From an uncultured Mycoplasma sp. (GTDB lineage Bacteria > Bacillota_I > Bacilli_A > Mycoplasmatales > Mycoplasmoidaceae), in contig CAMWHH010000005.1 in assembly GCA_947174035.1 (NCBI GenBank), forward strand, positions 1 to 15,574: DNA of 15,574 bases, in the 5' to 3' direction. Position numbers and translations under genes: made by a program. This document shows, one piece after another, positions 1 to 15,574 of the stretch. Under the pieces are notes generated by a model that saw only the letters and a program-made list of their open reading frames with translations, did no database searches and was not told where the DNA came from. Numbering within the stretch: position 1 is the stretch's first letter; each line of letters begins with the position of its first letter.

Positions 1-55
1 AATTATGGATATTAAATGTGCTACTATAGTGTTGCACTTCAAATTTCACTCAAGG

Positions 56-82
56 CTCTCATTACTTTATTAGTAATAAGAG
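56..82 (+). terminator. Hairpin, possible terminator at left edge
   Basis: A perfect-register inverted repeat pairs 10 bases (56-65 with 73-82, one G-U) around a 7-base A/T loop. Read on the plus strand it is followed nine bases later by a T-rich run from position 92. Read on the minus strand, which is the direction of rplA, no U-run follows. It therefore suits a plus-strand gene converging from outside the window better than rplA. A short plus-strand frame open from the window edge stops at 71-73 inside the hairpin, and I could not assign it to any family. The T-run is also simply the Lys-rich 3' end of rplA read backwards, so the terminator reading is uncertain. Confidence 0.4.
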
Positions 83-95
83 TTAATATAGTTTT

Positions 96-1142
96 TTATT
101 TTTTTGCTTTTTTTGCAGGTTTTGCTTTTGATTTAGAAGATGTTGATTTTGATTTAGATAATAGTTTTTTATTTTTTCCAACAAGTTTTTTGTTTTCTTT
201 AGTAACAATAGGTTTGCTAGCAACAGGTTTTTTAGTTTTTGCTTTTTTAACTATTTTCTTTTTTTCTTTTTTCTTTTTAGCTTCAACAATAATCGGAGGA
301 TTTTCAGGATTTTTTGATGGTTTTTTCTTTTGTGAATATTTAACCATCGGTTTTAAATAAACTTTTTTAGATTCTTCTTTAACTGATTTTTTTGAATCTT
401 TATCTACTTTTTTAGAAACTGATTTTTTTGCTGAACCCTTATTAATTAAAACTTTAATTCCCGGTCCCATAGTTGAAGAAATGTTTATTTTCTCCATAAA
501 AATACCTTTTACAGCAGCAGGTTTTTTTGAATTAATAAAACTAATTAAAAATTCAACATTTTCTACAATTTTTTTTGTATCAGCATTTGTTTTTCCAACA
601 ACCATATGGATGTTCCCATAATTATCTGTTCTATACTGACTAATTCCTTTTTTAAATTCAGATATTGTTTTTGACAAATCAGTAGTAACATTACCGTTTT
701 TAGGATTTGGCATCAATCCTCTAGTACCTAGTATTTTACCTAATTTACTAAGTTCAGGCATCATCTTAGGAGTAGTAATAATTAAATCAAAATCTAATCA
801 ACCTTTGCTAATTTCAGCAATAGTTTCAGAATCACCTGCATATGCAACACCTAAATTCTTAGCATCCTTTTGAGTTAAACCTTTGTCTAAAACTAAAATT
901 CTTTTTTCTTTTCCAAAAAAATAAGGAAGACTAACTGTTCCTCTCAATTGTTGGTCAGATTTAGTAGTGTCTAAATTTAATTTAATTGCTATATCTATTG
1001 AAGATAAAAATTTAGTTTTTGAAGATTTTTTTGCTAGTTCAACTGCTTCTTCGATTGAATAAAACTTTGTTTTATCAAAATCAAAAGCTGGTTTTTTAGA
1101 TGCTAAAGGTTTTGTTTTTGCTTTATTTTTTTCAGTTTTCAT
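96..1142 (-). CDS. rplA: 50S ribosomal protein L1 with lysine-rich C-terminal tail
   Basis: Ribosomal protein L1 binds 23S rRNA in the mobile L1 stalk, helps release deacylated tRNA from the E site, and often represses its own operon. The 348-aa reading frame crosses one UGA (Trp) near residue 116. Residues about 25-236 form the L1 core, including the family signature with KLGKILGTRGLMPNPKNG around residues 133-150. Normal L1 is about 230 aa; here roughly 112 residues follow, very rich in Lys and Ser with some Pro. The tail shows no recognisable domain and is probably disordered and RNA-binding. The start ATG lies 2 nt after the rplK stop, with an AAAGG about 12 nt upstream inside rplK, so the two genes are surely cotranscribed and probably coupled. 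No U-rich minus-strand terminator is visible after the TAA. The L1 assignment is firm; the function of the tail is unknown. Confidence 0.97.
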
Positions 1143-1144
1143 AA

Positions 1145-1606
1145 TTATTTTTTACCTTTCCCATCTTTATGTACAACAGGATCTACACCTTCAATTTTGA
1201 TACCCATTTGTTTAGCAGAACCTGCAACCATTCTTAATACAGCTTCTTCATCATTAGCATTAGTATCAACTAATTTTAATTTAGCTATTTCTAAAGCTTT
1301 TTCTTTGCTGATGATAGCAACTGTTTCAGTTTTTGAATTTTTTGCACCAGATTTAATATTTGCTGCTTTTTTAAGCAACATTGTTACTGGTGTAGTTTTA
1401 ATTTCAAAATTAAAAGATTTATCTTTATAAGCAGTGATAATACACGGAATAACTTCACCGTTCTTATCTTTAGTTTTTTCATTAAATTGCTTAGTAAATT
1501 CACCCATGTTTATACCAATAGATGCTAATTGAGGTCCAGGTTTTGCTTGACCACCAATTAAGTTAACTTTAGCAATTCTTGTAATTTTTGGATCTTTAAA
1601 AGCCAC
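1145..1606 (-). CDS. rplK: 50S ribosomal protein L11
   Basis: L11 binds the GTPase-associated centre of 23S rRNA and, with L10/L12, serves the translational GTPases. The 153-aa product shows the family's N-terminal domain, with a [20 protein letters not shown] stretch matching the conserved Gly/Pro-rich segment. Its C-terminal RNA-binding domain is marked by [13 protein letters not shown] near the end. Length is slightly above the usual ~141 aa because of a short Lys/Gly-rich end. Start choice: a longer frame begins with GTG at 1615, but that codon nearly touches the AAAGGA Shine-Dalgarno (1617-1622). I prefer GTG at 1606, 10 nt downstream, which yields a normal L11 N-terminus (V/M-A-F-K). 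TTG at 1612 is also possible. It is first in the rplK-rplA operon, behind a promoter and an L1-type leader. Confidence 0.96.
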
Positions 1607-1616
1607 AAGCAACACA

Positions 1617-1622
1617 TCCTTT
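1617..1622 (-). promoter_or_regulatory. Shine-Dalgarno of rplK
   Basis: AAAGGA on the minus strand. Its distance to the candidate start codons (GTG 1615 too close, TTG 1612 at 4 nt, GTG 1606 at 10 nt) decides which L11 start is plausible. Confidence 0.7.
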
Positions 1623-1639
1623 CTTAAATATATTCTCTA

Positions 1640-1670
1640 CGTGGTTAATAGCGGAAAAATCCTCCCACAC
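1640..1670 (-). promoter_or_regulatory. rplK-rplA leader resembling the 23S rRNA L1-binding site
   Basis: On the minus strand the leader contains GUGGGAGG, then a short GGA/UCC hairpin with a U loop, then UAUUAACCAC. The outer GUGG (1665-1668) pairs with CCAC (1641-1644). This copies the conserved layout of the L1-stalk base of 23S rRNA (GGUGGGAGG ... AUACCACC in Escherichia coli). Such mimicry is the established basis of L1 autoregulation of L11-L1 operons: free L1 binds its own mRNA and blocks translation. The element ends 17 nt before the Shine-Dalgarno of rplK. Function is inferred from the resemblance. Confidence 0.75.
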
Positions 1671-1709
1671 GCTTTAATTTACGTACACCAAAAAACATAC
1701 GCTTTTATT

Positions 1710-1715
1710 ATTATA
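1710..1715 (-). promoter_or_regulatory. -10 box of the rplK-rplA operon
   Basis: A perfect TATAAT on the minus strand lies in the gap between the sigma-like gene and rplK, about 40 nt upstream of the L1-type leader. No convincing -35 hexamer is seen, which is common in mycoplasmas. Transcription would begin near 1703-1704, giving a leader of roughly 100 nt. A weak AGTAA/TTACT inverted repeat near 1745-1772 might end the upstream transcript, but it lacks a strong stem. Confidence 0.55.
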
Positions 1716-1773
1716 TAATAATTTACTTAAATAAAATTTAGTTTTTTAACAGTAATTTTTAAATATTTACTCA

Positions 1774-2364
1774 TTAAAATTTTTCTATTCCATACTCTAT
1801 AATTATCTTTTTTCTATAATAATCCCAACAACCTCTAATTTTGTGATATGACATATTTAACATCTTGCTCATTGATTCATATGTGTAACCTTCTTTTTTT
1901 AATTTGTAAATTTTTTTAAAAAGAACTGATTCACTTTTTTGTACACCATATTCAAATTCTTTAACAGTGTTAAAAATTTTGTTATAACAAACTAAGTTCA
2001 TGTTTTCTTTGAAATTTTTTTCTCTTACAACTAAAAAATTCATCGGATTTTTTGACTTTTCTAATTTTCTGATTTCATTTCTAAAAAAATTGTATACAGA
2101 ATAATAAAGTCATGGAATTGCATCGCTTTTATGAAATTTATAATTTTCAATTAATTCTCAAAACTTGTAATAACCCATTTGTATTAAATCTTCAGATTCT
2201 ACAAATTTAAATTTTTTAGTAATTAATTTAATTGCTGTTTTTGAAATTAAATTAAAATAAAGTTCATTCAAAACATTTTTTAAAAATAATGTTTTATCAA
2301 ATCTATATAAATAAATACACTCATTTCAATTAACTAAACCATCTTTATAAATTTTTTTTGACAT
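1774..2364 (-). CDS. Sigma-70-family sigma factor, SigH-like by sequence and position
   Basis: The 196-aa product looks like a small alternative sigma factor that would direct RNA polymerase to a limited promoter set. Residues about 40-105 resemble sigma region 2: the ESEDLIQMGYYKFWELIENY segment (57-76) parallels the region 2.2 motif EDLIQEGMIGLYKAI of SigH proteins. A C-terminal helix-turn-helix (about residues 150-190, GYTYESMSKMLNMSYHKIRG) fits region 4. The order cysS, rlmB, this gene, rplK, rplA is the neighbourhood of Bacillus sigH, with yacP, rpmG, secE and nusG missing. The start ATG is 2 nt after the rlmB stop and no clear Shine-Dalgarno is present, so translation is probably coupled. 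Three UGA codons read as Trp lie in the N-terminal half. Mycoplasma genitalium MG428 is a known divergent factor of comparable kind. Sequence conservation is low, so I leave the symbol blank. Confidence 0.72.
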
Positions 2365-2366
2365 AA

Positions 2367-3083
2367 TTACAATATAAATTGCAAATAATAAATAGCAATA
2401 GCACAAGAAGACGCCACATTTAAAGATTGAACATCATCAGTCATTTCAATTTCAACTAAAAAATCTGATTCTTTTTTAATTAGTGATGAAATTCCTCTAT
2501 TTTCATTTCCTACTATCAAAACCAAGTTTTTAATATCTGTTTTAAATTCTGATAATTTTATTGATTTTTCATCTAATGCAGTAGAAATTGTTCAAAAACC
2601 TTCTTTTTTTAATTTGTTAAGTGTTTCAAATAAATTAGTTGCTTTATAAAAATTTAAATAATTTGCTGCACCCAAACTAGTTTTCAAAACTGTATCTGAA
2701 ATTTGAATTTGGTTATTTTTCTTAAAAATTACGCCTGCAACATCAAAAGCTTTACAAGTTCTACAAATTGCTCCAAAATTACCAGGATCTTGAATTTCAT
2801 CTAATACTAAAATAATTTTTTTCCATTTTCTATTGGTATTAACTTTTTCCATAAATTCATCAAAATTTGTAGTTATTCCAAAAGGATCAGAATTTGAAAT
2901 TCCCATAATATATTGATGATTTATATCATATTCATTAAAAAAACTTTTTTCTACCTTGTGTAAAATAATGTTTTTTTGTTTCAGTAAAAAAATTTCATCA
3001 AAATATGAAACATAATAAATTTCTTTCAAATCATTTTTATAAAAAGCATCTAAAACTGCTTTTTTACCAAAAAATTTTTTCAT
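2367..3083 (-). CDS. rlmB: TrmH/RlmB-family rRNA (guanosine-2'-O)-methyltransferase
   Basis: A SPOUT-class enzyme that transfers a methyl group from S-adenosylmethionine to a ribose 2'-hydroxyl, most likely Gm2251 (E. coli numbering) of 23S rRNA. The 238-aa length is typical. A short N-terminal substrate-binding domain (residues 1-~80) begins with the family-like FGKKAVLDAF. The three SPOUT motifs follow: LDEIQDPGNFGAICRT (94-109), with the catalytic Asn and Arg; IVGNENRGI (190-198), in the place of the usual FGSEGKG; and SLNVASS (220-226) in the knotted cofactor site. One UGA is read as Trp at residue 164. It starts 14 nt after the cysS stop, in a different frame. The exact target nucleotide cannot be proven from sequence, and TrmH-type tRNA methylation is the alternative. 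Confidence 0.9.
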
Positions 3084-3097
3084 AACACATACCCAAT

Positions 3098-4414
3098 TTA
3101 CAATAATTTTTTTTCTATTAATTTTTCTCTAATTGCATCTGATTTTTTAAACTCTTTTTTATTTTTTAAATCATCTCATTCTTTTAGCATTGTTATTTCT
3201 TGATTGTTGTGGATATTAGGATATATTATTCCTAATATGTTTTTTAACAAATAAGAAGTGTTAAAAAGTAATTCATTTAATTCTTCATATTTTTTTTGTT
3301 TAAGTAGAGTATGACCATTTTTTATTTTTTGTAAAATAAAAGAAATTTGATTTGGGAAATTAAATGAATTTTCTAGTTCAAAAATATATTCTTTTTTAAA
3401 ATTTAATAAATCTTTAAATTTATTTTCAATAATTAAATAACTTTTAAAAACATTTAAACTATAGATAATTGACTCAAGTTCATTTTTTGAATTATTTAAA
3501 TTTTCAGTAGTGAAATTTAAAGGATTTGAAAAATTTGTTTGATAAAAAAATCACCTAATTGTATTAGCAGATTCAGTTTTTAAAAGATCTTTTGCTAAAA
3601 TAAAATTTTGAAGTGATTTTGACATTTTTTCATTATTGATATTTAAATGTCCTACATGCATTCAAATTCTTGCTAACGGTTTTCCAACAACTGCAATATT
3701 TTGAATATTTTCATTTTCATGATGAGGAAATTTTAGATCAACACCACCTCCGTGAATATCAGTTTGAACACCTAAATATTTATTTATCAAACAAGCACAT
3801 TCAGTGTGTCATCCTGGTCTTCCTTGAGAAAATTCTGTTTCCCAATTTAAGCCTATATCTGTTTTTTTTCATAAAACAAAATCCTGACTATTGTTTTTGT
3901 TTGAGTTTAATTGTGATTTTTCTCCAATTAGAAGGTCGTCAATTTTTTTATTAGAAATTGTTCCATATTGGTTGGATTTTAATGTATTAAAATAAACATC
4001 ACCATTCTTAAAATATGCAAAATTATTTTCCATTATCTTTTTAATATAATTTTCAATATCTTTTATATGAGTAGAAACTTTGGGAAACAACATGTTTTGT
4101 TTATGTATATTTAAAACATCTAAAATTTCTAAATATTTTTTTTCATAAAATTCTGCTATTTCAAATTCTGTTTTTTGTTCTTGTAAAGCTTTGTTAATAA
4201 TTTTGTCATCAATATCTGTTATATTATGAATAAAAATAACCTTATATCCTAACTCAATCAATAAACGGTTTAAAACATCAAAAGTAATAATTGGTCTTAA
4301 ATTACCAATATGAACATGGTTGTAAACTGTAGGACCACAAACATACATTTTTACTGTTTTGTTTGTAGAACTAACTTCAACATTTTGTTGAGATATATAA
4401 TCATAAAGTTTCAT
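3098..4414 (-). CDS. cysS: Cysteinyl-tRNA synthetase
   Basis: Class I aminoacyl-tRNA synthetase that activates cysteine with ATP and charges tRNA-Cys in the cytoplasm. The 438-aa frame contains several UGA (Trp) codons and ends in TAA at 3098-3100. Visible hallmarks are the [13 protein letters not shown] motif (residues 26-38, with the HIGN active-site signature), the GWHTEC segment (C206), HHENE (231-235) and KMSKS (263-267). C26, C206, H231 and E235 correspond to the zinc site that recognises the cysteine thiolate. The protein is slightly shorter than the ~460 aa of most bacteria, as is usual in mycoplasmas. It lies between the 50-aa protein (32-nt gap) and rlmB. The Shine-Dalgarno is weak. 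mrnC (Mini-RNase III), which follows cysS in Bacillus, is absent here. Confidence 0.97.
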
Positions 4415-4446
4415 ATTAATAATAAATTTAGTTACTACTAATTATA

Positions 4447-4599
4447 TTAATCTTTATTTAACTTTTTTAGAGAAGAAATTAATTTGTTTAGCTTATTGTC
4501 AAAAATTTCTTCAAAATAATCTTTTGAGTCAACTAATTTGTTTATTTCTTGTAAACTTGTGTTTGAACTCAAATAATTAAATTTTTCTTTATTACTCAT
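4447..4599 (-). CDS. Small 50-aa hypothetical protein upstream of cysS
   Basis: An ATG frame of 50 codons, MSNKEKFNYLSSNTSLQEIN and onward, ends in TAA. It is preceded by AAGGA about 11 nt upstream and by a TATAAT box about 60 nt upstream. The product is charged and probably helical (many Lys, Asp, Glu, Leu), has no Cys, no Trp and no membrane segment, and matches no family I recognise. It lies 32 nt before cysS in the same direction, so it is probably the first gene of the cysS-rlmB-sigma transcript. It could be a leader peptide or a small accessory protein. Coding status rests on start, Shine-Dalgarno and codon pattern only. Confidence 0.5.
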   Translation of the reverse strand: MSNKEKFNYLSSNTSLQEINKLVDSKDYFEEIFDNKLNKLISSLKKLNKD

Positions 4600-4656
4600 T
4601 TGAATTTATTCCTTATTTTTTTTGTTAAAAATTAAATGAATTTCTAACCTGTAAAA

Positions 4657-4662
4657 ATTATA
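4657..4662 (-). promoter_or_regulatory. -10 box for the cysS transcript
   Basis: A TATAAT on the minus strand, between the terminator of the upstream operon (4743-4780) and the 50-aa gene. No good -35 is seen. The stretch 4600-4742 contains no gene. It holds this box, a T-rich tract, and near 4700-4735 a short imperfect duplication in which AAGTTTTT and AAGTTTTTT occur side by side on the minus strand. Confidence 0.45.
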
Positions 4663-4742
4663 AAAATCTTTTGATTACTCTATATTTCATATTTAAGTTA
4701 AAATTCTTTCAAAAAACTTTCCAAAAACTTTAAAAATTAAAT

Positions 4743-4780
4743 AAAAAACAACTCTTATTTTTATAAAAGTTGTTTTTTGT
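4743..4780 (-). terminator. Rho-independent terminator of the surface protein/pseudoenzyme operon
   Basis: On the minus strand AACAACTTTTAT (4763-4774) pairs with ATAAGAGTTGTT (4747-4758) around a 4-base A loop, giving a 12-bp stem with one G-U and a following U-run. It starts about 10 nt after the stop of the isomerase-like gene and closes the operon that runs down from 15508. The plus side is also T-rich, so it may work in both directions. Confidence 0.85.
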
Positions 4781-4782
4781 TT

Positions 4783-5700
4783 TTAAATGTCTTCTTCTAT
4801 AACTTTGATTTCACCAAAATATGTATCAGATGTTGTGTCATACATATCAAAATCAATTGTTTTAGTAGCATCTTTAATTCTTTCGTTTTCAGTTGGAAGA
4901 TCAATTAAGACTTTGTAGTCATAATGTTGTGTATATGCAAGATTTGAACCATTATATAAGTGTTTATATAAAACAGTTATATACTTATGAGACAAAGCTC
5001 TTTCATCTTCAATTAACACACCATCTAAATCATTATTTTTACAAATTTGTTCAATGTAATCATTTTCAATCTCACCACCATAAATGATTGGTAAATTATT
5101 TCCAATGTGATAACCAAATTTATTTCTTAAAAATTCTCTAATAATTTTGATTGTGTCAAAAACAAATTTTTCATCAAATCTTGTGCTTATTTCACCTAAA
5201 AATGTAGGTTTATAAACTAAATAAACTTTATCGATTAAGTCTAACCCATCAATACCATCAAAAATTTGATTAATTTGTAATTTTAAATTTTCTTTAGTAT
5301 TTTCTTTTGATAAATCAACTCTAGTTTCTTCAATAAAAACAACAGCTTTGATATCATTTTTAATTAACTTATGTAATTTAGCATTAATTTGATAGTTTTT
5401 TTCTTTGAAATCTAATTTAGCATCTGGATGACCAATTAAAGTTGTTTTGATTCCATAATCTTTTAGTTCAATTCAAGAAACACTACCAGTGTGATTACCT
5501 AAAGAGGGAAGTGAAATATTTTGTGCGATTACTTCAATATTTTTTTCACCAACTAAACCTAAACTAGGAATAATTCCTAAATATGAAGGTGCAACCATAA
5601 CTTTTACATTTTCAAAATTAGAAATATTTTTAAAAAATTTATTTATAGATATGAAGTCAGCACTCATTTTTCAATTTGCTATTAAAACTTTTTGTCTCAT
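4783..5700 (-). CDS. Triosephosphate isomerase-like protein, catalytic Glu replaced, C-terminal extension
   Basis: The fold is that of triosephosphate isomerase, a TIM barrel. The 305-aa product begins MRQKVLIANWKM, keeping the family's N9 and K11. IEVIAQNISLPSLGNHTGSVS (55-75) matches the conserved GAQN...GAFTGE segment. LIGHPDAK (88-95) keeps the electrophilic His at H91. The catalytic Glu of the YEPVWAIGTGK motif is Lys here (YKPTFLGEIST, K164), and flexible loop 6 is altered. The phosphate-binding YGG (207-209) remains, but DG-LVGGASL is changed to DGVLIEDERAL. Family length is ~250 aa; the last ~55 residues are an acidic extension. Loss of the Glu should abolish normal isomerase activity, so I infer a structural or regulatory pseudoenzyme. 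An ideal Shine-Dalgarno (GGAG) follows the upstream stop, 11 nt away, placing it last in the four-gene operon. I would not name it tpiA. Confidence 0.85.
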
Positions 5701-5711
5701 ATTATTACTCC

Positions 5712-8700
5712 TTACTCTTTACTAATTTGATTAGCTTGCTTTCAAATTTCACTTAATTGATTGTATTGTCTTACTTTATTTTTATCTAATTTCAATCTTC
5801 TTTCTTCTTCAACTAAAATTTGTGCATCTACTGCAACATCTTCTAAGAAATTATCAACATTTAAATGTTCATCAATTCTTTTTTGAACTCAACTCTTAGT
5901 TAAATCATATTCTGGTTTAGTACTGATTCTTTCATTGATGTCATCAACAACAATTGGATTTCCATTTTCATCAAGTTCTACTTCTTCATTCTCTTCATCT
6001 TCAGATTCAGGATCTTTTCATTCAATAGTTACATTATCAAATTCTTTATATAAATTTGCATAATGTGAGAATCTTTCAGCAAATTCTTCTTGTCTATGTA
6101 ATTCAACATTTTCATCAAATTCACCTTCATAAACAATTGCTTCTTTAGCTAAATTGATTTTATTTTTATAGTTCATGTCAAATTTATAAACAATTTTTTT
6201 GTTTTCTGTATTTAAAGACTTAGCATGATTTTTTAAGTCATTATTATACAGTTTATATACACCAACTATTTTTGCTGTTAAAGGGTTTAAACTGATTGCT
6301 GGAGCAGTGAATATATTAGAAGCATCATATTCTTTATTTTTTTCATTTAAGTAATTAATGTTTTCAATATATTTTTGATTAAATAAATCAATATTAGGTT
6401 TGTTTTCGTTTACAACTTGAACAACTTCTTGAAAATAGTCATAGTAAGAAACTGTTGCATATAATTTTTTTTCATTTTCAATTTCTTTATCACTTTTTTC
6501 TTCAATAAATTCTTCTTCATCGTTGTTACCAATACCATCAATTGCATTTAAATCAACTTTATTAGCAACATAATTTTCAAAAACTTCTTGAACATCATTA
6601 GCTACTAATTCATAAAATTGTGTTATTGCTAGTGCATCATTTGTTTTTAAAATTTCAAGTTCAGCTTTCTGAATTTTTTTGAAATATAAGAAAGGTAATG
6701 TGTTTGAATATACTCTATTAACTACTTGTTCGTTTTTTGATAAATCAAAAGTTCTGTTTACATTTTGTAATAAATTAAATTTAATTGAATTAATTCATTT
6801 GTCATTTCTAACAAAATTAGTTGTTCAAATTTTCTTGTCAAAATATTTGTTAGAAAGTTTAGTAATTTTTTGTAACTTAATTTCTTTATCAAAAAATGTT
6901 TGGAATGTTTTTTTATAATTAATATCTAAACCAACAAAATCAATTTTGTTATATTCAACATAATCAATTAAAATGTTGTAAAGTTTTTTACGAGTTTCTG
7001 GTGTCAATAAAACTTTTTCATGAATTTTAACAATTTCTTTTAGTACAACATATTTTTGTTTATCACTTATAAATTGTGGGTCTTTAGAAAATTCACTATA
7101 AAAATTCAATTGATTTTTTTCAAAGTTTTGTATTAAATCATCTGAAAGAGTTTCTTTTCAAATATCAAAAGCATCATTTAAATTTTCTTCAATTTTAACT
7201 TTTGTAAAATTTGGATCAATCAAAGAAGTATAGAACAACTTATTATCTAAATCTAATGATTCAAGTGTTGATAAGATTGAAGAATAAACACCTAAGAAAT
7301 TACTTTTAATTTTTTTAGCTGATAAATCTCCATTAGTAAAAACAAAAGGAACAGGTGATGATTTATTTTGTGGAATAATATTTAAATGCTTATCTAACAT
7401 TTTTTCAGCTGCACCATAAGCTGATGTTAAAGCAATAATATTTCCAGTACATCTACAGAAATTAATTAATCTTCCTAAATGTTTATCAAAATTTTCTATT
7501 GTTGCTATCAATTGGTTTAAATCTGCTGATCTTGCAGCTTCTGCAATCATTGGAGCTAAAACAAAAATAACATCATATTTACCAATTGCATCAATTGTTT
7601 TGTCAATCAAAATTTTTGATGATAAAGAAAAATAATCTTTATCTGTACTACTATAAGGAGTTGATAATACTTTTCTTTCAATGTTTGGATTTTTTAAATT
7701 TGGACCAAAAAATTTATTTATAAAACCTTTTTTATGGTTCATTCCTAAAACAAGGGCTTTGTTATTATGTTTTGCAATAACATTTGTTAATAAATTATCT
7801 TCTCTTCCATTAATTGGGTTTGGAAAAAATAATGCATCCATTTCAGTACCATAAATAGGTGCTAAACTTGATAAATAAATTCCTTTAAGTTTTTGTTCAG
7901 TTTTTATCATTCTTGCTAGTGTTGCAAAATCATCTGGATCACTGTTCAAAAATAAAACTATATCTTTTTTAGATAAGAAGCAATCATCAATTAAACCATT
8001 ATAAGCAGGTTCAATATTAGCATCCATTATTTGGTTAGCTAAATTTTCACTTAAATATTCAGTAGCACCACTAAATGGCTTTTCACCTAATCCACAAATA
8101 GTTTCAAAGTAATTCATAACATGAGCATTATCTAAATATGAATGACCTTTTTTACCAAAAACATGGTTTCTTCCTGCAAGTGAAATAATTGGTGTATTTC
8201 TTTTTAATAAGAATTTTGAAAACTCTTCTAAATTTTCACTAAAACTATAAACTCTTTCTTCTTGTCCATCACCAATTAAATGTAAAACTGGTTTTAAACC
8301 TTTTTTAATTAAAATATTAACAATGTAATATAAATTAGTTAGATTTAGCTTAGTGTTGTTTTTAGATAGCATTGAAAAAATATGAACTAATTTAGAATTT
8401 GTTTCATTTGATCTATTTATTAATTTATCAAAGATATCTAAATTATGTAAAGACTTACTAGCTATTTGTTCATTCAATAATTCCAAATATGTTTTAATGT
8501 CTGTTTGACCATAAAACATTTCATAAAAGTTTGAATCTACATCTCTTTTAACAGAAGGATGACTCTTTTTAGGTATTAATACATCTTTTTTTCTATCATT
8601 TGCAAGGATTGCTCAAGGATAAATACCAGAAATTAAATAATTAATATTAGGCTTATTAGCTAATTTTAAATAATTTCCTTTTCATTTTTTGTTTAATCCT

Positions 8701-8738
8701 ATACCTTCAGTAACAAGAAATACTAGAGTGTTTTTCAT
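5712..8738 (-). CDS. iPGM-like pseudoenzyme fused to a ~500-residue unknown C-terminal region
   Basis: The 1008-aa frame runs uninterrupted once UGA is Trp. Residues 1-~510 follow the cofactor-independent phosphoglycerate mutase fold in order: MKNTLVFLVTEGIGLN (cf. VALIILDGF), ANKPN (27-31), a region in place of GNSEVGH, then segments matching SGRYYAMDRD, AIIFYNFRPDRA and NPDMVGHTG...VDECLGRVV...ITADHGNAE. The active-site residues are gone. The first Asp is Glu (TEG), NSEVGH has become HPSVKR, FRPDR is SDPDD, the metal-binding NPDMVGH is APMIAEA, ADHGN is SAYGA, and the His before NPVP is lost. The C-terminal ~500 residues match no family I recognise. They are charged, with predicted helices and acidic patches (around residue 740 and at ~900-925), and no membrane segment. 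It starts 32 nt after the large surface protein and 11 nt before the TIM-like gene. A cytoplasmic scaffold role is inferred. Confidence 0.85.
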
Positions 8739-8770
8739 ATTTTTTCCCTTTCTTATATAGCAGTGTTTAA

Positions 8771-11700
8771 TTAAAATCTATCACTGTCTAGTTTTAATAA
8801 GTCTTCAACCTTATTAACTTCAACATATCTTTTCTTTTTGCTTTCTTCAGACAATCTAACATCAAGAACTTTAGATAGTTTTTTAACATCTTTTCTAGTC
8901 TTAAATAAGACAATGTAAAGAATTGGTGTAAGTAATAATAGAATTGGAACTATAACTGCAACTATAACAATTAAAATATTTGTTCCATCATATCTAATAG
9001 GTGCTGTTGCAAATCCTGTATAACTTCTTTCAGTAGAAGCAACTACAACTCCACTTTTATATAAATTAACTGTTATCTTTAATGTCCCTTGAATATCATC
9101 ATAAGTAGTAAGAACTTCTTTTTCTAAATCGTTTCCTAAACTAATGTTTAATAAAGAAGCAATTTGTTCATCTGTTAAATTAGATGGAATAGTGTTTTTT
9201 AAAGCTAAAGCTGCTTCTGAAGTGTCAAGAGCTAAAGAAACTGAATAATCAGCATTTTGTAAAGTAAATCCAGAAAGAATACTACTATAGTTATATGTTG
9301 ATCCATTCATTGTGATTCTTGCATACATTGAAAGAGTACCTTGTGAATCATTTGGAGTTATTGAAAGTGATAGTGCATCAGGATTTTGCTGAATTTCTTC
9401 TGCTAAACTAACAGACAATGAGTTTGATAAATTAGAAACTAATTGTAGTTTTTCTAAATCTGTTTGTGCTGAACTTTCAATTAAACTAAGTGCATTTGAT
9501 GCTGTAGAAGAAGTAAGAGCAGCATTTGATGTAGTTAATTCATAAAAAGATTTTCAAATAATACTATCAATTGAACTTTGGATTCCAGATTTCAATCCAT
9601 TAGTTAAAACTGTCGAAAAAGATTTTTCTGGAATTTTAATTGTTTTAGTTGATCCTTCACTTTCTTGTTGTTCTCATCAATCATAGAAAGTTATAGTAAC
9701 TTGAATAGCACCTGATGAACTCATTGGAACAACATCAATTTTATGACTTAATTGTTGAGCTGAATTTTCAAAAACAAATAAGTTTGGAAAGTTAGTTTCT
9801 AAATATGAAGCTGTTATTTGTGACGGTTTTAAAGCATCAAAAGCATTAACATCAATGTTACCTCATGAGAACTTTGGCATTGCTGTTGGTGCACCTGATT
9901 GGTTTGTGTTAGATGTAGCAAAACCTGAAAATTCACAAGAATATGAAGATAATAACCCATTTATTTCTTCATTGAATCTAATTCCTATTGTTAAAGTTCC
10001 TAGTGAATCATTAGGATTTATAGTTAAAGTAACAACACTTTTATTGTTTTCATCTAATCCTGCTATTATGTTAAATATGTAATTTGACATATCCATAAAC
10101 AAAAATAATGCAGATTTATCATTGTTTATTAGCGAAAGAATAGAAGAAGGTGTTAGTGTATTTAAATTATATGTTGCAGCAGCCTGACCACTACCAACTG
10201 TATAAGTTGAATTTAATACTGTTTGATTATTAATAAAATCTAAGAAAACATTTTGATTAGTAGTGAAATCTTTTTTAAAAACTTGTGCAGTAACAAACGA
10301 ATATCTTACATTAGTCTTGTTACCAATTTTTGGAATAATTGCAGTAACATACAAATATCCTTCAGAGTCAATTGGATATATTTGAATATTTGATGCCAAA
10401 GGTTTTTGAATTAAATCATTTGTTAATAGTTGTCTGTTTGAAAAAGCATCACCAAAAATTAAAAAGTCATTAATAATATCATCAGCTGTAATTTCTGAAG
10501 GTAAAGTTCCAGAGTATTTGTTTGTTAATGACGCTTTCAATAAAGAATTATTATTTAAATATTCATCAGTAACTAAATTAACAGAAGAATCTAATCCATT
10601 TAAAACATCAACATTAAAATAAGGATTATTTGATGAACCAATGTCTATAGATTGTGTGTAATTTAAAAGTAAATTACCATCAATTCAAACTGCATCTGAT
10701 TTTATTTTTACTGTTAAAATACCAGCAGCATCATTTGGTTCTAAATACATCAAATAATTACCTGCATTTTCAATTGTTAGAATTTTTGATAAATCTTCTC
10801 TTGTAACTTGACTAGGTAATAAACTTGTTATTTCAGCTGTAACACTATTTCTATCAGCAACTGTTATAGAACAATCATCATTTATAAAAGTATAGTTATT
10901 AGAAGACAATCAAACACTAGTTGGATTTGTAGAGTCAATATTTCCATTAGATATTTTTCTAAGGTTTTGGTAAAAATTGATTGAAACTGTATAATTGTTT
11001 GAATCGCCAATTTTACTTACTGAACCAACCTTAGCATCAAAAATTGGTTGACCAAAAACTGAATCATATGAAGATACATTAAAAAATTGACTTGCATTTG
11101 TTTTAATAAAAGTTTGAAAACTTTCAGATGCAGAAGTGCCATTATCGCTAACTTTTTGGAAAAGAATGTTTGATGGAATTTCAGATTCAGACAATAAAGA
11201 AGAAGATGCAACAAATTCAGTTCTACTATTAATAGAATTTGTACCTAATTGACCAACTAAATTAGTTCCACTAAATTGAATAATTGAACCATCTGTCATT
11301 TGCGCATATCAACTAGCATCACCTGGTCTAGTAAATAAATTAAAAATTAATTTAGAATCAGTTGAATTTGCTGATAAGTTATTAAAATTATATAAAATTG
11401 TAATTGTACTGAAATCTGATCTAATTCTTACTGCTGTATTATTGCTTAACAGAGCAATAAAATCACCATTTGCAACATTTGATGAATTGTTATATAGATT
11501 ACTTATACTTACAATATATGCATTACTAGTAGATGAAATTGTTGATAAAGTAGCTGGTGTTGAAGCATTAAATGAATTATCAGTGATATTACCATATAAA
11601 TAAGTTGTAGTATTAGAGCTAGATAAAATTAGTGTTGTTCTAGAATTATTACTAGCAACAGTTGCAGCTAAATTATTTGTAGCAGTATTTGTTTTCATTA

Positions 11701-12730
11701 ATGAAACTTGATCTGCAGATAAATTAACACTATATAAAGAATTTGAATTTATAACTACATTGTTCCCACCTGTAGCTACTCTCATAATTGTTACATAATT
11801 GTTAATGGCATTATTACCGTTTAAAGAATCTTGTTGAAAAACAAAATAAACAAAATTACTGTCAGTATAATATTGAGCAACTTTTGAAGTTAAAGTTGCA
11901 CCTGTTTTATTAGTGTCAATGAAATAATTGTTAATTAAATTATTATCTAATGAAATTGTTTTTACATTAGAACTACTTCAGTTGTTAACATTAGTATCAG
12001 TTGATGAAAAACTTGTAGTAGTTAATTTAATACTATTAGTTGTTGTTGACCCACTTGTAGTAGAAGTAGATTCAACACCATATATAGTAATATTAAAACT
12101 ACTAACTGAATTTACACCAATATAAAATTTAGTACCATCAGAAAAACTAGCATTTAGTTTAGTTGCTTGAACTTTACTTCCATCATCCACTTTAATTAAA
12201 ACTGCATAATAACCATTATCACTACCTTTTGCAACACTAACAAAAAAAGCATTTCTGTTTAAATAAGAAGGTACATAAGTTATAGCTAAATATTCTTCAG
12301 CATAAACACTAGATGCTAAAGCATTATCAGTGTGGTTTCAAATTCTGCTACCATCAGACATTTTATAGTAAGAAATTCTATTAAATTTATCTGTTATTGA
12401 AGTACTTACAGTAGCAGAATTTGCTTTATAAGTAGATGCATTTGATGTTAAAAGTGCATAAGTAGATCCTGAATTATCAAAAGCAATGTTTTGAATAGGT
12501 GAACTTAAATTACTAGTATTCTGTAATTTGTTTCAAGGCAATAAATAAGAGGCACTAGTATCAGTATCTGCATTTAACTTACTTGAAACTCTAGAAAAAT
12601 TATTTGAATTTTCTTCACTGTTGTAATTCGTATTAAATCTATTAGCTGCAACAAAAGTACCTGCAGCAAAAACTCCAGTTATACCAACAGCTAATAAAGA
12701 TGCATAAATTCTTTTCTTTAATTTTTTCAT
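8771..12730 (-). CDS. Large membrane-anchored surface protein (1319 aa) with repeated lipoprotein-associated-type modules
   Basis: An N-terminal signal/anchor (KKLKKR then a hydrophobic segment, residues ~9-29, without a lipobox Cys) leads to a Ser/Thr/Asn-rich ectodomain. One strong membrane helix follows (about 1251-1276), then a ~43-residue basic cytoplasmic tail. Residues ~60-490 are strand-rich, with recurring blade-like pieces such as YYKMSDGSRIW, IKVDDGSK and YAQMTDGSIIQF, which suggest but do not prove a beta-propeller. From ~600 on, modules recur with an LPS(E/Q/N)(I/V/L)T start, then a PND..GTL.V strand, often ending in GF. This is the pattern of the mycoplasma lipoprotein-associated domain (Lipoprotein_17). 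Start choice: a GTG at 12739 overlaps the AGGTGA Shine-Dalgarno, so ATG 12730, 5 nt past it, is used. It lies 27 nt after the sister protein gene. Topology is outside with an inward tail; function is probably adhesion or binding. Confidence 0.85.
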
Positions 12731-12757
12731 ACTAGTCACCTATTTAATTTTTTGTTT

Positions 12758-15508
12758 CTATATTTTTTTCTTCTTATTTAAATTAAATTTTTTTTCATCA
12801 ATAGCATTTGTTTTGTTTTTGTTGTTTTCTTTACCCAACAAATTGTTGTGATAATCTTTGAAATTTCTTATTCTTGCTCGTCGTAGTAATAAAGATAATA
12901 GAACTACCCCTAATGTAACAGAAACTGTTGTTGCAACTGAAACACTAATAACAGCTGTTAAATTTTTAGGCGGATCAAACCTTGTTTCATTTTCAAAATA
13001 ATTACTAATAAAACCTGTGATTCTTGTAGCAAAAACTCTATTAGTAGTATTTTCATCTTCCTGATTGAAAATTGGTACATTAACTTGAACTAATAAAGAT
13101 GAATCGCTCAATATAGGTGTAATTTGAATATTGTTAAGTGATAAAGTACCATCTTGAAACATTCCAATATTACTTAAATAATAATCAACTACATCTTGCT
13201 TAGTAACTCTGTTCAATGGAATTGATAATAAATCTGAAGAAACATTGTCTTGTGGTAATCATGAAAATGAAACCACACCAGTTGTAGATTGACTTTTTGC
13301 AAAACCTGTAAAAAATTGTGAATATATATAATTATTAGGATTTGTAGTATTGTCTGTTTTTTTGCTTAAAAAGACAGTTAATGTTCCATTTACATCATCT
13401 GGTAACAAATTAATACTTAAATTGTTTTCATTTTCACCAATAACACTTGTAATAAATGATGTGTATGGAGAAACAGCTGCTGATGTAACTAAATTGTATG
13501 CAACATTAGAAGGGATGGTATTTGGAAAAGATGGGTTTTCATTGATGACAGCATCATTTGTTTTTCAAGTAATAGATAATACATCATTTTGATTTCCTGT
13601 AGCTTCATACTTGTAATATGGTAGGGTGAAAGATTGTTGAAAAACTTTAGTTTCTCCTGATCCATTTCAATTTTCAAACTCTAATCTTACAGTTATGGTT
13701 TTATTGTCTATTCCTGAAGAAGCTTCATAATTCCCTGTAGTTTCATTATAAGATGTGTTAGACTCAGGAACTGCATCCATTGGAGCATTAGTAGATGGTT
13801 TACCATATAAAATTGTTGCTTTTCTATTCATTGAATTAATAGTTGATGTTGTATTAATGAAATGATTTGTAAATAATCTTACAAATTCATTATTAACACT
13901 ATTTTCATCTTTATTAGTGCTTGAAGGGTCACCAATATATTTATTCTTGTTAAATTCATTAACAATATCAGATGAAGCAGTAAGACCATAATTTGATAAA
14001 ACATCAGCTGTTTTTCAAGAAAGAATTAAATTATTTGTAGGATTTTCATTAATTGCAAAAGTAGCAGCTGGTAAATTTGCTTCATATGTTGAAGAAACTA
14101 TATGACCAGTAAAAATACTAAATTCATTGTAGGTAATAATTAATTGTAAACTTCCATCTTGATCATTTGGAATAGGTTCAATATTTGTAATCATTAAAGA
14201 TGAATTCAAGTTTTTAATCTCTTGTAAAATACCTCCAGTGATTCCATCACTTGTATCTCCAGTACCAGTAACAGATGAATTATAGAAACGGAATGATTGC
14301 CCATTATATGAATAAGTTAAAATTGGCTTTGAATCTGTGCTTGATGCATTTTCTTTTAAACCTATACCACTATCAAATAAACCAATTAGTGCACTTGTTC
14401 CACCAAATGGACTAACAAATTGTGAAGGAGTTAAAGTTGAAACTTGTTGATTATTTCCAGAAACACCATCAAATAAAGAATTATCAGAAATTATTCAACT
14501 TCTAAAATTCTGTTCCATATTAATTTCGATAGTTTTTCTAGTACCATCAGCACCTAAAAAACCACCAATATATTTAGTAATTGTTATTTCTCTTTTATCA
14601 GTATCATTTGGCGCATCACTACCACCAGTTGATTCTTCAGGAAATCCATTTGACAATCAATCTGATTTAGATGTATTGTTAAAAATTATTTCAACTTTAT
14701 ATAAACCAATATTATTAGTTGTGCTATTCCCATTTCCATCAACAGCACTAACATTAATTTTTGTGTATGGTACATTACTACTTTCATTGCTATCAATAAG
14801 TGGAGGAAGAGTGTTTTTGTTAAAAAAATTATTTCAAATATCTTCAGCACTTAAAGTAGTTAAAGTAGAATTTAAAACATATTCTTTAATAGAGTCTTCA
14901 GAATTTCAAACTAAATTATATTTTTCTGCTGTAATTCAATTACTTAAATTATTTATTCTTGCTGTAGAAAAAACATTGTTAGCTGTAGGAGCTGATGTAG
15001 CATCACCTTTATAACTTTCTAAAACAGCAATATCAATAGTGTCTGTTGTTTTGTAATTAACATTACCTGTGTTTCCTGTAGTTGATTTAGTAGCATCTGC
15101 AAAAGTTGTAACATTTTTACTACCATCATAATATGTTTGATAAATTAAAAAATTAACATAACCCTTGTTTATGTTTTGCTCATTAACAGGAAGAATAACT
15201 GCAGATCAAGAAGTAATTGTAGAACTTGGTGATAATACATTTTCAATATCTGAATTTAAAACCTGATCAGCTTTTTTATTTAAAGGTTCTTGAGCAGAAT
15301 TTACAGTGAAATTTGCTGCAGTTTGAGTTTGTTGAGTGTTAGTGGATAAAGCATTTAAATTACTATTTACACTTTTTAAATTTTCATTATTTTTACCTGA
15401 AAAAAATAAACCTGAAAACGTTGCAGTAGCTGAAACAATTCCAATTGTTGCTAAGATTGCAAGTTTTTTTCGTTTTCTTAAAAAAGCAAATAAAGAAGTT
15501 TTTTTCAT
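12758..15508 (-). CDS. Membrane-anchored surface protein (916 aa), first gene of the operon
   Basis: The frame is continuous from ATG 15508 to TAG 12758-12760 with UGA as Trp. A basic N-terminus (FLRKRKK) and hydrophobic segment (~16-36) form a signal/anchor without a lipobox Cys. A long Asn/Ser/Thr-rich ectodomain follows, then a membrane helix (~851-875), the stop-transfer cluster RRARIR (876-881) and a Lys/Asn-rich cytoplasmic tail. The ectodomain contains modules of the same kind as in the downstream 1319-aa protein, for example PIPNDQDGSLQLIITY, LLPDDVNGTLTVFLSKK ending in FFTGFA, and a last one ending ATRITGFI just before the helix. Shine-Dalgarno AGGTAA is 8 nt upstream and a TATAAT box lies 41 nt upstream, so it opens the operon. 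No specific family is recognised; a surface adhesin or receptor is likely. Confidence 0.85.
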
Positions 15509-15548
15509 TGCTAATTACCTCAAAACCATACCAATAAATAAGTCAAAG

Positions 15549-15554
15549 ATTATA
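15549..15554 (-). promoter_or_regulatory. -10 box of the surface protein/pseudoenzyme operon
   Basis: TATAAT on the minus strand, 41 nt before the ATG of the 916-aa surface protein. The expected -35 region falls at the window edge and cannot be judged. The spacing would give a short leader of about 35 nt. Confidence 0.5.
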
Positions 15555-15574
15555 AATTAACCATTTATATATAT

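Follow-up and report, generated by a model that had tools for sequence, protein, structure and literature searches.

Two kinds of surface machinery described in mycoplasmas bear comparison with a compact four-gene unit carried on the minus strand of a 15,574-nucleotide stretch of DNA from an uncultured Mycoplasma sp. of the Mycoplasmoidaceae (GenBank assembly GCA_947174035.1, contig CAMWHH010000005.1, positions 1 to 15,574; hereafter, the window). The unit, S916-S1322-PGM2-TIM2, joins two large surface proteins to two pseudoenzymes, one resembling 2,3-bisphosphoglycerate-independent phosphoglycerate mutase (iPGM, the product of gpmI) and the other triosephosphate isomerase (TIM or TPI, the product of tpiA). 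The first described kind, the Nap/P1 type, consists of pairs of large surface proteins encoded by neighbouring genes, namely P140-P110 in M. genitalium and P1-P40/P90 in M. pneumoniae. P110 and P140 are reported to carry a beta-propeller head (PMC6203739, PMC7280502) and to stabilise each other reciprocally (PMC6203739), and a compact intracellular density beneath the Nap has been published (PMC7280502). The second kind is the gliding machinery of M. mobile, which comprises Gli123-Gli349-Gli521-Gli42 and a twin motor in which phosphoglycerate kinase (PGK) is found (PMC8406192, PMC11864180). The window is Malacoplasma DNA. M. penetrans, a member of this wall-less group, glides with a protrusion in front, and no obvious resemblance in molecular basis is reported between the gliding of this species, M. 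pneumoniae and M. mobile (PMC9282661).

When the unit is set beside Nap/P1-type systems, S916 and S1322 show the same overall arrangement, with an N-terminal export segment, one C-terminal transmembrane (TM) helix and a cytoplasmic tail, whereas the beta-propeller head is predicted for S1322 only, by a weak model. Unlike those systems, the stalk of S1322 is made of PF04200 modules and the operon includes two pseudoenzyme genes; moreover, no P1, P140 or P110 chain was listed at E <= 10 among solved structures, whether the query was S1322 itself or a profile of either surface protein. With the machinery of M. mobile the operon has in common a row of surface proteins and a glycolytic protein, which in M. 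mobile is part of the inner machine. The proteins of M. mobile are, however, larger (Gli349, 3183 amino acids, and Gli521, 4727, against 1322 for S1322 and 916 for S916), and its PGK, unlike PGM2 and TIM2, is described as having retained the residues for substrate binding and catalysis (PMC11864180). It is therefore not a pseudoenzyme, and the precedent that an earlier note on this DNA, made from the sequence alone, had seen in it is weaker than stated there. Our reading, to which we give roughly an even chance, is that the operon encodes one membrane machine, in which an adhesin complex of two subunits is joined to its own cytoplasmic scaffold of pseudoenzymes; adhesion (the word adhesin included), dimerisation, tail binding and polar location are properties that we infer.

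The four genes are open reading frames (ORFs) in genetic code 4 separated by gaps of 18, 32 and 11 nt, within the 11-32 nt given by the earlier note. That note had also proposed looking for the same gene order in related genomes, and the order proved to be whole in eight of ten Malacoplasma genomes (the window's own, G022, G023, G024, G025, G028, G029 and G030), which are all of those whose contig spans the unit; gaps in the intact copies measure 2-43 nt. As for the other two, a contig end cuts the unit inside PGM2 in G026, and the surface genes of G027 cannot be placed because its contig starts inside PGM2. PGM2, TIM2 and homologs of S916 are present in all ten genomes, and every pseudoenzyme copy that does not run into a contig end has an open frame. 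In G022, G023 and G030, TIM2 is followed by a second S916-like and S1322-like pair.

The roles of the catalytic residues of TIM and iPGM are taken here from general knowledge of both enzymes. TIM2 matches the TIM profile PF00121 along its barrel (residues 5-230, E 1.7e-36), with a score under the NCBIfam equivalog cut-off. The catalytic glutamate (E165) is replaced by Lys in all ten genomes, in contrast to the Glu found in each of seven aligned genuine TPIs; these seven serve as the control, one of them missing two positions owing to a late start, and eleven of 17 genuine TIM loci were left out of the alignment since they were not recovered by motif. Likewise in all ten genomes, the phosphate site has turned acidic (Ser211 to Glu or Asp, Gly232 to Glu or Asp, Gly233 to Asp or Asn), W168 of loop 6 (WAIGTG in TPI) is Phe, and Ser96 is Pro. 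The active-site Asn, Lys and His and the Gln, Thr and Gly of dimer loop 3 are retained throughout; TIM is usually a dimer, and the kept loop suggests that TIM2 may dimerise as well. A C-terminal extension further distinguishes TIM2 from TPI.

PGM2, in turn, matches the iPGM profile TIGR01307 over residues 5-492 (E 2.8e-29; 101.9 bits against an equivalog cut-off of 330.65). Fourteen sequences (eight from genomes and six from databases) were aligned with 17 genuine controls, omitting the genuine iPGM loci L017, L023 and L031, whose frame was not recovered, and L032. Four metal ligands are lost in all fourteen (numbered after the genome's own gpmI: D394 to Ala, D435 to Ala or Pro, H436 to Tyr or Phe, H453 to Asn, Ile or Val), D12 is Glu in 13, and H398 is retained in just three. 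The nucleophile Ser62 is still Ser in seven, the window's own copy included, and is Ala in six and Thr in one. Several arginines are lost, and some pocket residues are kept, among them Lys336 (14/14) and Arg190 (13/14). Beyond the enzyme fold lies an extension of about 500 residues, predicted to be helical, which occurs in all ten genomes of the genus and in none of 310 other genomes of the order, save for one weak broken match. A protein search with this extension, in which only candidates sharing most words were scored, returned 14 proteins, including the window's own, among about 5.8 billion; one database relative of PGM2 comes from Malacoplasma penetrans HF-2. The iPGM-like and TIM-like identities, the missing catalytic residues and the extra C-terminal regions are all as the earlier note had described them.

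The residues that are kept could also be taken to mean that both folds still bind a glycolytic metabolite and thereby regulate adhesion, a sensor role to which the conserved Asn, Lys and His of TIM2 and Lys336 and Arg190 of PGM2 would lend themselves. We consider this very unlikely, since the phosphate-binding residues of TIM2 are mostly acidic and PGM2 has lost several arginines and most metal ligands, so that phosphorylated sugars should bind poorly.

Genuine enzymes exist alongside these copies. The earlier note had suggested looking elsewhere in the genome for intact gpmI and tpiA, and both lie side by side on contig C11 of the window's own genome (G000; 139 contigs, 79.7% complete), followed by a gene that, from its sequence, we take to be eno; the operon copies are thus ruled out as the only TPI and PGM of this genome. 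Both genuine genes occur in eight of the ten genus genomes and both are missing from G023 (93% complete) and G027 (78%). As tpiA and gpmI are neighbours in the genomes examined, one assembly gap could explain the missing pair, and a real loss in G023 is possible given that PGK was found there; G023 keeps TIM2, PGM2 and PGK even though no genuine TPI or iPGM was found. A plain duplication of the tpiA-gpmI cassette was also rejected as the source of the operon copies, because their order is reversed (PGM2-TIM2) and each pseudoenzyme forms its own clade in the trees, on stems of 1.83 and 2.5 changes per column. These trees are midpoint-rooted only and do not settle the origin of the pseudoenzymes; they leave out L078, and the database PGM2 rows P0015 and P0023 were left out of a further comparison.

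The rates of change argue for selection on the pseudoenzymes. The ratio of nonsynonymous to synonymous substitution rates (dN/dS) was computed against four of the nine other genomes, the closest ones and M. penetrans, and against three for PGM2, its G026 copy being split. Between the window's own genome and G028, G026 and G029, the ratios are 0.005, 0.041 and 0.041 for TIM2 versus 0.085, 0.155 and 0.185 for genuine TPI; against G028 and G029 they are 0.052 and 0.117 for PGM2 and 0.052 and 0.123 for genuine GPMI. The surface proteins are looser among close relatives (0.15-0.28). Against the distant M. penetrans, where dS is about 1 and ratios are less reliable, the values are 0.177 (TIM2), 0.202 (TPI) and 0.476 (S1322). 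In G028, TIM2 is 99.7% identical to the window's copy, above the ribosomal proteins L11 (96.8%) and L1 (91.0%) of the same window. The loss of catalytic residues, taken alone, would be compatible with decaying leftover duplicates that have no linked function, an explanation effectively ruled out by dN/dS of 0.005-0.177 for TIM2 and 0.052-0.227 for PGM2, as well as by the open frames and the presence of both genes throughout the genus. The pseudoenzymes are thus kept tightly among close relatives, drift on longer time scales and are not decaying. Because residues were lost in extra copies whose order is kept under purifying selection, recruitment to a non-catalytic, surface-linked role is the best reading; this is the part of the recruitment proposal in the earlier note that finds support.

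Hydropathy gives each surface protein an N-terminal hydrophobic segment, a single C-terminal TM segment and a basic tail, in agreement with the anchored proteins and cytoplasmic tails described before. The tails carry motifs specific to the operon copies examined: RA[RK][IL]R.FK in S916 (9/9 operon copies, 0/3 copies from second pairs, 0/5 distant paralogs) and V..[IV].DLL in S1322 (9/9, 0/3 and 0/6, respectively). Compared with G022, G023 and G030, across the deepest split, the S1322 tail is 47-58% identical, against 17-36% for ectodomain segments. The propeller head of S1322 and the special character of the two tails are suggested only. Homologs of S916 were found in none of 85 other genomes of the family (E 1e-5), and the S1322 profile gave partial matches in six of the 310 other genomes of the order, one of them G073. 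In M. penetrans (G024), four tandem S916-like genes (L113, 2044-13188) stand about 9 kb before the genuine tpiA-gpmI, and three tandem S1322-like genes (L115, 4300-17141) are found away from that array; the two families have expanded separately.

Glycolytic enzymes, TPI among them, have been reported as mycoplasma adhesins (PMC7954426), so PGM2 and TIM2 might themselves work extracellularly, moonlighting at the cell surface. This is highly improbable: neither has a hydrophobic segment above the hydropathy cut-off, and the moonlighting proteins on record are housekeeping enzymes. Chaperone-like factors that serve the assembly or stability of the surface pair and stay outside the finished complex would be compatible with the operon order, with the long helical extension of PGM2 and with the reciprocal stabilisation reported for P110 and P140 (PMC6203739). 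Nothing specific points to this role, and a TIM2 strongly conserved among close relatives, beside faster-changing surface proteins, suits a fixed cytoplasmic partner at least equally well; we regard it as quite unlikely.

Finally, the unit might transmit gliding force, the surface pair acting as legs which PGM2 and TIM2 couple to a still unknown motor. M. penetrans glides (PMC9282661), a glycolytic protein in a gliding motor has its precedent in the PGK of M. mobile (PMC8406192, PMC11864180), and both pseudoenzymes accompany the whole genus; we nevertheless hold this to be unlikely, as no ATPase gene was recognised among the ORFs of the window and a second F1-like alpha/beta (type 2) ATPase pair was not found in the ten Malacoplasma genomes by a PF00006 search. 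In seven genomes this search gave two matches above the cut-off (alpha-like and beta-like by frame length); G000 and G026 each gave one, G027 gave two together with a fragment at a contig edge, and the weak partial matches in G023, G024 and G028 fall under the cut-off. The negative is firm only in the better genomes, such as G024 with its one contig, because G000, G026, G027 and G029 are fragmented or incomplete. A motor pair of the M. mobile type is thus rejected as far as the genomes allow. As a separate observation, the open frame that holds the F1 alpha-like match (G000:C57:2478-3119 and relatives) spans 537-774 codons in nine of the ten genomes and 504 in G023, against a usual length of about 500; these are lengths of frames, not of proteins.

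A related cluster in another genus of the family widens the picture. In the single-contig genome G073, four genes stand in a row (C1:258570-269303, L137): one similar to S916 (1103 amino acids; hhalign 94.5%, E 7.6e-8), one similar to S1322 (1403 amino acids; hhalign 99.8% over 718 columns), one for a 783-residue protein in the place of PGM2, and one for a dead TIM of 262 residues in which the catalytic Glu is Met and YGGS has become YGGL. Genuine tpi and gpmI are found at 939-942 kb of this genome. The link between a surface pair and a dead TIM is therefore not confined to Malacoplasma; common descent, transfer and convergence could each account for it, and one genome cannot separate them. 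Two further apparent surface pairs of similar size are also present in G073, at 277-293 kb.

In the scaffold reading that we prefer, S916 and S1322 would together make up an adhesin complex at the cell surface as its two subunits, exported by their N-terminal segments and each anchored by one C-terminal helix; S1322 would display a beta-propeller head on its stalk of PF04200 modules, and the short basic tails of both would point into the cytoplasm. PGM2 and TIM2 would stay inside, inactive on sugars, their stable folds serving as protein-binding blocks. The genus-specific helical extension of PGM2 would contact other proteins and, by a low-confidence model, could reach into the interior, whereas TIM2 could cross-link neighbouring complexes, given that its dimer loop is kept and that TIM is usually a dimer. 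PGM2 and TIM2 would then form a plate that grips the tails, gathers the adhesin complexes into clusters and connects them with the inside of a polar attachment organelle, a connection that may also transmit gliding force. On this account the unit would be a surface complex whose cytoplasmic part consists of two pseudoenzymes. A bolder version, which we advance tentatively and think less than probable, is that the operon encodes the core of a previously undescribed machine for attachment and gliding in Malacoplasma, the two dead enzymes now serving permanently as the cytoplasmic plate of its two-subunit adhesin. Such a machine would predate the genus, since G073 carries homologs of both surface genes together with a dead TIM, arranged in the same way.

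Several results weigh against the scaffold reading. At greater evolutionary distances the genuine enzymes are mostly better conserved than the pseudoenzymes: identity to the window's copy is 71.8% for TIM2 versus 77.6% for TPI in G024 and 41.8% versus 53.6% in G030, with G025 showing the opposite (76.6% versus 55.6%), and PGM2 falls below GPMI in G024, G025 and G030. This long-term drift might be that of parts fitting changing partners. The S1322 tail is not better kept in comparison with G024 and G025 (56-59% versus 35-57% for the ectodomain), that of S916 is barely better kept against the distant clade (27-45% versus 23-31%), and distant S1322-like paralogs share mutually similar tails with no linked pseudoenzymes seen. 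The structure models are weak (mean predicted local distance difference test, pLDDT, of 49.6 for the S1322 propeller and 59.8 for the PGM2 extension), and no sequence similarity of S916 or S1322 to solved adhesins was found. In G073, the 783-residue protein has no detectable similarity to PGM2, and loop 3 of its TIM has Met where TIM2 has Thr. All in all, the finding is genuine, goes beyond chance and is out of the ordinary, and the mechanism is a reasoned candidate.

The features of the unit are collected in Table 1. The strong terminator that had been predicted at its end folds at -14.5 kcal/mol (z -6.35), none of 200 shuffles being equally good, and it is absent from the output of a generic consensus scan; hairpins resembling it stand 3' of TIM2 in several of eight relatives and are unclear in G027 and G030. 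At the other end, the promoter-like box of the earlier note is recovered as a TATATATAA block 5' of S916 in the window and in G024, G025, G026, G028 and G029, and is missing in G022, G023 and G030 (eight relatives examined). The consensus scan lists no promoter at this block, with only 66 nt of the window lying upstream of S916, and a promoter there is weakly indicated. For S1322, the ATG at 12730 is the likelier start, with an AGGTGA box just 5' of it, which would give 1319 amino acids.

Table 1. Positions of the operon genes, their parts and the flanking signals in the window.
Feature	Positions	Strand	Description	Basis or remark
Promoter-like TATATATAA block	15540..15574	-	Reaches the window end and is cut there	Present in 5/8 relatives
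S916 (gene 1)	12758..15508	-	916-aa surface protein; N-terminal hydrophobic segment, C-terminal TM, basic tail	
S916 TM segment (approximate)	12881..12961	-		Hydropathy
S916 cytoplasmic tail	12761..12880	-	Motif RA[RK][IL]R.FK	Motif comparison
S1322 (gene 2)	8771..12739	-	1322-aa surface protein with PF04200 modules	
S1322 N-terminal region (approximate)	11528..12397	-	Predicted beta-propeller	Weak structure model
S1322 TM segment (approximate)	8915..8983	-		Hydropathy peak 3.19
S1322 cytoplasmic tail	8774..8896	-	Ends V..[IV].DLL	Motif and identity comparison
PGM2 (gene 3)	5712..8738	-	1008-aa iPGM-like protein without the enzyme's active site	
PGM2 iPGM-fold region	7227..8738	-	Most metal ligands lost	14 sequences aligned
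PGM2 C-terminal extension	5715..7226	-	About 500 aa, predicted all-helical	Model mean pLDDT 59.8
TIM2 (gene 4)	4783..5700	-	305-aa TIM-like protein without the catalytic Glu	
TIM2 C-terminal extension	4786..4953	-	About 55 aa, conserved; YF..I.I.EE near the end	Alignment of 10 genomes
Intrinsic terminator 3' of TIM2	4743..4778	-	Hairpin and U run	Fold z -6.35

The surroundings of the unit contain further features. Between TIM2 and cysS lies an ORF of 50 amino acids (window 4447-4599, minus strand), which has relatives at the corresponding position in G028 and G026. Also on the minus strand, a fast-changing sigma-70-like protein of 210 amino acids (1774-2406) is encoded beside rlmB and cysS; it is 29-34% identical to its counterparts in M. 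penetrans and G025, whereas these two neighbours keep 58-68%. Ribosomal protein L1 (96-1142, minus strand; 348 amino acids in all) ends in a long lysine-rich C-terminal tail. A 521-residue protein without a Pfam or NCBIfam match (L039, 17366-18931) has look-alikes upstream of the operon in several relatives. In M. penetrans, a 518-residue ORF occurs in two copies with the same start (L041, 1396-2952; L115, 2499-4055), one of them between a galU-like gene and the operon; this repeated ORF is probably an insertion sequence.

No paper on this gene set was found among the openly accessible papers searched, and J Bacteriol 199:e00069-17, on the attachment organelle of M. penetrans, may already list the four proteins, whose genes lie at 21.6-32.4 kb of the M. 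penetrans HF-2 chromosome. In the accessible literature we found no gene-level explanation of how that organelle is built or driven, and a compact, conserved set of four genes offers a testable candidate for part of the attachment machinery of the genus. If the scaffold reading is true, the operon would be a clear example from nature of two glycolytic enzymes that lost their chemistry and turned structural, and their working counterparts in the same genome would allow comparison.

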